Part shown: piece by piece, positions 4,967-6,669 of the stretch
Position numbering within the stretch: the stretch's first letter is position 1
Layout of the letters: every line of letters begins with the position of its first letter
Origin: Balneolaceae bacterium
GTDB lineage: Bacteria; Bacteroidota; Rhodothermia; Balneolales; Balneolaceae
DNA length: 64,000 bases
NCBI GenBank assembly: GCA_006969905.1
Contig: CP030887.1
Coordinates: 2,090,001 to 2,154,000 of the forward strand
Direction: 5' to 3'
Notes under the pieces: model-generated
Databases searched by the model: none
What the model was told of the DNA's origin: nothing
Seen by the model: the letters and a program-made list of their open reading frames with translations, nothing else
Translations under genes and position numbers: made by a program

Positions 4967-6124
4967 ATGATTATTATCGTTTTTATAGATTTTATTGCAA
5001 ACATTTTTTCTAACAACTACATGCCGCACGGTGCCTGCTATTTGTGGGAACCGGGTATACTATGGTCTAATGTTTTCGGTGATGGATTAACTTCTCTTTC
5101 ATATTTCATGATTCCGGGTCTTTTAATTTACTTTGTAAAGAATCGGAAAGATGTCGAAGTTAATTCACTGCTACTTGCATTTTCCTTTTTTATAATAGCA
5201 TGTGGTTTAGTTCATTCACTTGCCATTGTAAATGTTTGGAGGCCATATTATAATATTTCAGGTTTTTTGAAATCATTAACAGCAATCATATCTGCAGGTA
5301 CGGTTTTTATGTTATACCGAAGTATGCCGGAATTGATAAAAATACCAAGTCCCGCTTCTTTAGAGAAAGCAAACAAAGAAATTCTTGAACTGAATGAGAA
5401 TCTTGAGCAGAAAGTTGAAGAAAGAACGGCAGAATTAATTGAAATAAACAAGGAACAAGAGAGCTTTAGCTATTCTATATCCCATGATTTACAGATTCCA
5501 ATACGAGCTATTCTTGGTTTCTCGTCAATGATCAAAGAGGATCATGCCAGCCAGTTGGATGATGAAGGATTAAGAAAACTGGATACAATCTCTGAGAGTG
5601 CCAACAAAATGAATGAATTGGTGCAGGGTATATTAGAGTTTTCAAGGTTAGGTAGGGCGGGCGTAAGTATGAAGCCTTTGGATATGAATCAACTATTCAG
5701 GGATAGTTTTAATGAGGTGGTGGATTCAAAAAGCATTGAAGAGGAAATAGACTTTGAGGTTGCAGATTTACCGGAAGCTTTAGGTGATGAATTGATGATT
5801 AAAAGTGTAATCAATAATATTATCGATAATTCGGTTAAGTATCGAAATATTGATTCCAAGCTCAAGATTAAAGTACATGCAAAAGAAGAAGGCTCGCATA
5901 TTGTTTATAGTGTTTCAGATAATGGAATTGGTTTTAACATGAACTATAAACCAAAAATGTTTGAAGTATTTCACCAGCTGCATAATGAGAAAACTATCAA
6001 AGGCAGCGGGGTCGGATTGGCAATTGTTCATCGCATTATCAGTAAGCACTCAGGAATAGCTGATGCCTATTCTGATGGAGAAGGAAAAGGAGCTACTATA
6101 CACTTCTCATTACCTAAAGTTTAA
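4967..6124 (+). CDS. Sensor histidine kinase with ethylene-receptor-like (ETR1_N-type) membrane domain
   Basis: 385 residues. The N-terminus contains MPHGACYLW, then three membrane helices (about 34-58, 68-88, 98-118), a short coiled linker (130-163), a HisKA domain (phospho-acceptor His173 in SISHDL) and an ATPase domain with N-box Asn288 (NIIDNSVKY), G1 DNGIGF (318-323) and G2 GSGVGLAI (346-353). In the membrane part Asp39, Tyr46, Ile49, Pro50, Cys79 and His83 correspond to Asp25, Tyr32, Ile35, Pro36, Cys65 and His69 of plant ETR1 at a constant offset of 14; Cys65 and His69 are its copper ligands. No receiver domain or response regulator gene is next to it, so it is an orphan kinase. The ligand could be ethylene or another small molecule (inference). 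Confidence 0.9.
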   Translation: MIIIVFIDFIANIFSNNYMPHGACYLWEPGILWSNVFGDGLTSLSYFMIPGLLIYFVKNRKDVEVNSLLLAFSFFIIACGLVHSLAIVNVWRPYYNISGFLKSLTAIISAGTVFMLYRSMPELIKIPSPASLEKANKEILELNENLEQKVEERTAELIEINKEQESFSYSISHDLQIPIRAILGFSSMIKEDHASQLDDEGLRKLDTISESANKMNELVQGILEFSRLGRAGVSMKPLDMNQLFRDSFNEVVDSKSIEEEIDFEVADLPEALGDELMIKSVINNIIDNSVKYRNIDSKLKIKVHAKEEGSHIVYSVSDNGIGFNMNYKPKMFEVFHQLHNEKTIKGSGVGLAIVHRIISKHSGIADAYSDGEGKGATIHFSLPKV

Positions 6125-6207: not shown

Positions 6208-6669
6208 TTATTCTACTATGAACTTACCATTCATCAACGCGTAATGGCCCGGGAAGCTACAAAGGAATGTATATTCTCCTTTAGCAGGAGCTTCAAATTC
6301 AATCGTTGTAGACTCACCGCCACCAATTACAATCGTATGTGCAATAACGTCTTCTGTCCCCTCAGGAATGTAGTCGTTGTCACGCGCTTTAATGGCTTCC
6401 ATAGCAAAGTCTTTTAGTACTACATCTTTTTTAAGTAGTACAAAATTATGTCCCATTGCCTGCTTTGGTAATTTACCAACATGCTTTAGTGTAAGTTTTA
6501 TAGTTGCTCCCGCTTCTACTTTGATTTCAGACAAATCGAACTTCATCTGATCGTTAGATTCGATTACAACTTCAATAACTTTTTGTTCGCCTTTTTCAAC
6601 CACGGCTGTGGCCTTTTCGGCTGGGTTTGAAATGAATAGAAAGAATAGTAAGTATATAAAATACTGCAT
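6208..6669 (-). CDS. Azurin-like cupredoxin
   Basis: 153 residues with a hydrophobic N-terminal signal sequence (about 1-20) and a blue-copper domain. The type 1 copper ligands are visible: His74 in MGHNF, and Cys137, His142 and Met146 in CSFPGHYALM, spaced as in azurin. Azurins are small periplasmic electron carriers. The mature part is azurin length, so this is a stand-alone carrier; there is no fused oxidase or reductase. It has its own terminator. The redox partner cannot be read from this region. Confidence 0.9.
   Translation of the reverse strand: MQYFIYLLFFLFISNPAEKATAVVEKGEQKVIEVVIESNDQMKFDLSEIKVEAGATIKLTLKHVGKLPKQAMGHNFVLLKKDVVLKDFAMEAIKARDNDYIPEGTEDVIAHTIVIGGGESTTIEFEAPAKGEYTFLCSFPGHYALMNGKFIVE

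Follow-up and report, generated by a model that had tools for sequence, protein, structure and literature searches.

What does a small membrane-bound histidine kinase of a Balneolaceae bacterium sense, and to which partner does it hand its phosphate? The gene lies in a 64,000-nucleotide stretch of contig CP030887.1, called the window below. The first-pass annotation had placed at positions 4967 to 6124 a kinase with an ETR-type membrane part, and an open reading frame encoding 385 residues is indeed present there. We scanned the translation against Pfam and found that residues 31-125 match the ethylene-receptor N-terminal domain ETR1_N (PF25487) over profile positions 2-96 of 97. The match scores 103 bits (cut-off 27; E-value 1e-29) and is not a chance one, and the profile search proposed for the membrane part thus placed it in the expected family. 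The statement that the kinase half is complete was borne out as well: HisKA (residues 164-229, 45 bits, 8e-12) and HATPase_c (residues 273-384, 75 bits, 6e-21) both scored over cut-off, the phospho-acceptor H173 lies within the H-box SISHDLQIP, and the N, G1, F and G2 boxes are legible in the translation. The same scan gave no PAS, GAF or receiver domain in the 385 residues. The membrane kinase is a member of a family already known in bacteria. The features referred to in the text are the following.

4967..6124, plus strand: ETR1_N-HisKA-HATPase_c histidine kinase, 385 aa (open reading frame; Pfam)
5021..5047, plus strand: N-terminal motif MPHGACYLW, aa 19-27, with H21 and C24 (alignments)
5057..5341, plus strand: ethylene-binding transmembrane domain, aa 31-125 (PF25487 match)
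5081..5083, plus strand: D39 codon, equivalent to ETR1 D25, which sets ETR1 ethylene affinity (alignment)
5201..5215, plus strand: C79 to H83, equivalent to ETR1 C65 and H69, copper ligands by ETR1 equivalence (alignment)
5270..5272, plus strand: K102 codon, equivalent to ETR1 K91, covarying partner of D39 (covariation)
5456..5653, plus strand: HisKA dimerisation and phospho-acceptor domain, with H173 (Pfam; H-box)
5783..6118, plus strand: HATPase_c catalytic domain (Pfam)
6208..6669, minus strand: azurin/plastocyanin-family cupredoxin (PF00127, 4.7e-18; synteny)

The ETR1_N domain is present as a single copy in the window's genome. A scan of contigs from named genomes with the full-length kinase returned matches in the kinase half only. 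Three long helices (29-59, 65-89 and 93-123) were predicted for the membrane part in a low-confidence model (pLDDT 63) built from three sequences only. The distance between Cys and His had been suggested as a structural means of refuting the assignment; it is a weak test, because the two residues lie four positions apart on one helix. A profile search of the solved structures in the PDB found no ethylene-binding transmembrane domain, and the minimal size of this kinase makes it a good subject for structure determination.

We then asked whether the binding site itself is intact. The six residues named in the first-pass annotation (D39, Y46, I49, P50, C79 and H83) correspond exactly, at an offset of 14, to D25, Y32, I35, P36, C65 and H69 of ETR1. 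The seventh residue essential in ETR1 is also kept (I76, equivalent to I62), and the kinase carries all seven residues required for ethylene binding in ETR1, D39 Y46 I49 P50 I76 C79 H83 (DYIPICH). The alignment had been described as free of gaps, which is correct for helices 1 and 2 and incorrect ahead of helix 3, where the loop is three residues shorter; the offset in helix 3 is consequently 11, and K102 is the counterpart of ETR1 K91. Identity with ETR1 over the domain is only about 20%. The Pfam match is independent of the ETR1 sequence used in this residue alignment. Ahead of helix 1 the kinase has the motif MPHGxCYxW, most of which is common to the window genus and its family, to the Azospirillum receptor AzoEtr1 and to two viral contigs, and which plant ETR1 lacks. 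It is possible that its H21 and C24 provide an extra copper ligand or a disulphide site. The motif is lost in the copper-ATPase fusions described below.

The conservation of the site was measured with a profile built from 20 relatives and run on all loci of the comparison set, which yielded 63 distinct ETR1_N domains. Among these 63, C65 is kept in 61, H69 in 62, I62 in 61, Y32 in 61 and P36 in 58. Position 25 (ETR1 numbering) is complete in 62 of the domains, of which 55 have Asp there and seven have Asn. The identity of position 91 follows this choice throughout: all 55 Asp25 domains have a basic residue there (Lys in 33, Arg in 22), and none of the seven Asn25 domains has Lys or Arg (Asp in five, Leu in two). 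The covariation spans at least three separate groups, namely the copper-ATPase fusions, the Maribacter phages and the L023/L123 type, and the window kinase, like ETR1 itself, is of the D/K type. So complete a pattern agrees with the proposed D25-K91 bridge and gives evolutionary support to a salt bridge that has so far been deduced from models. In ETR1, according to the account of Aman et al. 2025 given in PMC13012798, the Asp-to-Asn change lowers affinity about 100-fold and does not abolish function. The 25/91 pair divides the domains into two natural classes, D with K or R and N with a non-basic residue, whose affinities can be compared. Among nearer relatives, the canonical site is intact wherever the domain was found: in six species of the genus and in three further species of the family. 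Altogether, the intact site and the family membership are supported by the profile, the residues, the relatives and the covariation.

The domain is far from confined to this lineage. Over the cut-off, it was found in 9 of 92 genomes of the family, 12 of 245 of the class and 20 of 394 of the phylum; in the order of genome G311 it reaches 69 of 341 (about 20%). Of the nine family carriers, six belong to the window genus, which has eight species, and the remaining three are spread over two other genera. Since the distribution is patchy, with two of the eight genus species and most of the family lacking it, the receptor is not essential. ETR1_N also occurs on named plasmids of Azospirillum, Novosphingobium, Blastomonas, Rhizobium, Eleftheria, Rhodovastum, Acaryochloris, Pseudanabaena and Kovacikia, and is a widespread bacterial module. 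Kinases with an ethylene-binding domain have been reported across proteobacteria and cyanobacteria (PMC11819568, PMC7700396). The earlier view, that ethylene is established as a bacterial cue in a few cyanobacteria only and that a marine heterotroph of this lineage would be new ground, has been overtaken: in the heterotroph Azospirillum brasilense, AzoEtr1 shows saturable ethylene binding and biofilm formation is under its control (PMC11819568).

AzoEtr1 is a bacterial kinase of a heterotrophic host with the same domain, about 40% identical over the domain to that of the window kinase; its residues D35 and C75 have been tested (PMC11819568). Unlike the window kinase, it contains PAS and has a regulator gene beside it, and the two kinase cores are far apart. 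SynEtr1 of Synechocystis (slr1212) likewise joins an ethylene-binding domain to a bacterial histidine kinase that signals to a response regulator (PMC11819568, PMC7700396), but it is bifunctional, with a light-sensing GAF domain for which the Pfam scan of the window kinase gave no counterpart. With plant ETR1 and ERS1 the kinase shares the seven essential residues and K91, together with ETR1_N, HisKA and HATPase_c, whereas it lacks their GAF and receiver domains. The plant receptors signal mainly via CTR1, in a way that does not depend on kinase activity (PMC11819568). If ethylene is bound, plant hormone receptor chemistry would be at work in a bacterial lineage without evident plant association.

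To which regulator, then, could the kinase be coupled? The single-domain regulator that adjoins AzoEtr1 (135 aa, PMC11819568), as one does the sister-genus kinases discussed here, is absent at the window kinase. A whole-genome scan found 44 receiver domains, the nearest about 142 kb away, in line with the first-pass remark that no response regulator sits nearby; this distance counts against the reading proposed below. The lack of a neighbour does not mean the lack of a partner, however, because a candidate sits at 396 kb. In the sister genera represented by G031, G032 and G040, the ETR1_N kinase gene lies directly upstream of a gene for a 139-146 aa receiver-only protein, between conserved PdxJ/Era-like genes on one side and a GlmS-like gene on the other (named by eye). 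In G031 and G040 a further receiver protein follows, whose counterpart in the window's genome is a receiver joined to HisKA_2. The ortholog of the receiver-only protein in the window's genome (contig C1 of G000, 396075-396503; 55% identity, E-value 9e-44, next best 5e-18) lies in a locus with the same synteny. There, a PilJ-PAS-kinase of 1113 aa (L048:6451-11868 for the locus) occupies the slot taken by the ETR1_N kinase in G031 and G032, and G040 has at this locus both a kinase-less PilJ-PAS protein and an ETR1_N kinase. The gene order looks like an exchange of sensors above a conserved pair of response regulators, and its simplest reading is that ETR1_N and PilJ inputs swap over one conserved output module, and the window kinase, now unlinked, may use the 396 kb regulator. 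A tree of kinase cores unites the kinases of the window genus in a single group with full support, next to these ETR1_N kinases of the family, the deeper forks being weakly supported.

Two kinds of gene arrangement bear on a link between the domain and copper. The first is a fusion. ETR1_N is joined directly to a kinase in the window genus, to PAS and a kinase at L032 and L033, to a hybrid kinase with receiver at L035 and L036, and to PAS and a HisKA_2 kinase at L044 and L050; in G252 a single protein of 1532 aa contains HMA, an E1-E2 ATPase with a CPC motif, ETR1_N, PAS, HisKA and HATPase_c. G421 has a 1532 aa frame that is assigned to the same type by its start, length and flanks, and in G505 the contig ends inside the same fusion, HMA to ETR1_N being present.

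L038:7340-11938, plus strand: copper P1B-ATPase-ETR1_N-PAS-kinase fusion, followed by a receiver protein
L049:5389-9987, minus strand: the same arrangement, as judged by length and flanks
L051:1-3078, minus strand: partial copper P1B-ATPase-ETR1_N fusion

The three carriers belong to one genus (g123), and since the fusion is seen in three genomes an assembly artefact is unlikely. Plant ETR1 receives its copper from a copper ATPase, RAN1 (PMC13012798). Judged by its domains, the fusion would be a one-protein bacterial version of the RAN1 and ETR1 pair, and the covalent link between a copper pump and ETR1_N argues strongly, though circumstantially, for the use of copper by the bacterial domain as well. 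It offers a direct handle on how the receptor obtains copper, an open question of the RAN1-ETR1 field; the literature searched, which left out most subscription journals, contained no report of a copper-ATPase-ETR1_N-kinase fusion. The second arrangement concerns an azurin-type cupredoxin gene. Wherever the genus has the receptor, in six species, this gene adjoins it, convergently in the window and in G007 and divergently in G001-G004. As a co-occurring partner azurin was rejected, being present in 88 of 92 family genomes. Because it is near-universal, only its repeated adjacency counts, and this modest evidence makes a link with the receptor only suggestive.

We propose as the probable function a minimal Cu(I)-dependent sensor kinase of the ethylene-receptor type, with ethylene or a small alkene as putative ligand and an output via the unlinked 396 kb regulator. 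The protein would consist of the ethylene-binding membrane domain, a coiled-coil linker and the kinase, without PAS, GAF or receiver. Within a homodimer, Cu(I) would be held by the helix-2 residues C79 and H83, and D39 with its helix-3 partner K102 would tune the affinity. On binding, ethylene or a related small alkene would shift the helices and alter the autophosphorylation of H173, most likely lowering it, by analogy with ETR1 and with indirect evidence from SynEtr1 (PMC11819568). The phosphate would then pass, probably, to the single-domain regulator near 396 kb, which may be shared with the adjacent PilJ-type kinase.

Could copper itself be the signal, so that the membrane-site Cu(I) reports on redox state or copper loading and no organic molecule is involved? 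The ATPase fused to ETR1_N in genus g123, the copper P-type ATPases encoded in the window's genome and the cupredoxin beside the receptor in two arrangements all point in this direction. But azurin is near-universal in the family, with the receptor or without it, and the positions that give the alkene site its shape (I, P and the D-K pair) have been kept. Moreover, true ethylene receptors need copper as their cofactor (PMC13012798); links with copper therefore cannot separate a copper sensor from an ethylene receptor, and we regard direct copper sensing as rather unlikely.

A different question is whether the Cu(I) site receives some other small molecule, such as carbon monoxide, acetylene, propene or an algal volatile. 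The Cu(I) sites of plant receptors bind several such ligands, and no ethylene source is known for this organism or its habitat. All seven residues and the K91 equivalent are nevertheless of the high-affinity ethylene type, and such a ligand seems to us quite improbable. It is more improbable still, to the point of being hardly credible, that the input is vestigial or repurposed and that the domain merely anchors and dimerises the kinase. The genus kinases do lack PAS and GAF modules and a neighbouring regulator, and the distribution is patchy, as this would have it; yet the copper and affinity residues are invariant across genus and family while domain identity falls to 47-68%, and true degeneration is seen elsewhere, in the two of 63 domains without the Cys.

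The domain is also carried by phages, in proteins devoid of a kinase. A search of IMG/VR returned two contigs with such proteins. A relative of 289 aa, annotated as hypothetical, is encoded by Colly_1 and Molly_1-5, marine phages of Maribacter that are in culture.

L087:3788-4597: kinase-less ETR1_N protein (PF25487, 9e-30), with MazG-like and RusA neighbours
L088:3941-4336: kinase-less ETR1_N protein, 131 aa (PF25487, 2e-21)
L091:4935-5804: Colly1_63 of Maribacter phage Colly_1 (PF25487, 3e-16)
L092:2935-3804: the relative in Molly_1 (PF25487, 1.5e-16)

The Maribacter phage proteins are of the N25/D91 type, and Ser replaces P36. At L088, the ETR1_N gene has tail-region genes on one side and a gene for a peptidase-like protein on the other, and two small one-TM-like proteins are encoded next to it; a neighbour matches the PHROGs family 'baseplate hub subunit and tail lysozyme', and PHROGs gave no family for the viral-contig ETR1_N copy tested. 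In Colly_1 and Molly_1-5 an N-acetylmuramoyl-L-alanine amidase gene (Colly1_64 in Colly_1) is directly downstream of the ETR1_N gene. This position suggests a role in a lysis cassette, the contexts of L087 and L088 differing in detail. Kinase-less ETR1_N in marine phages was not reported in the literature searched. Taking phylum and phages together, one may tentatively, and with some doubt, picture ETR1_N as an all-purpose membrane module for Cu(I)-based sensing that was shuffled onto kinases, fused to a pump for cofactor loading and carried by phages without a kinase, for gas or copper sensing or for lysis; the window kinase would be its minimal member, sharing a regulator with the PilJ kinase.

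A stand-alone form of the domain also exists in the Bacteroidota-level family f36, and no counterpart of it was found in phage records. In f36, the same membrane domain is not fused to the kinase, unlike that of the window kinase: ETR1_N is a 159 aa protein of its own, and its gene overlaps or abuts the start codon of the next gene in the operon, whose product is a kinase-like membrane protein. At most of these split loci (L103, L105, L108, L111 and L112, read by eye), a receiver gene follows the kinase-like gene in the cluster.
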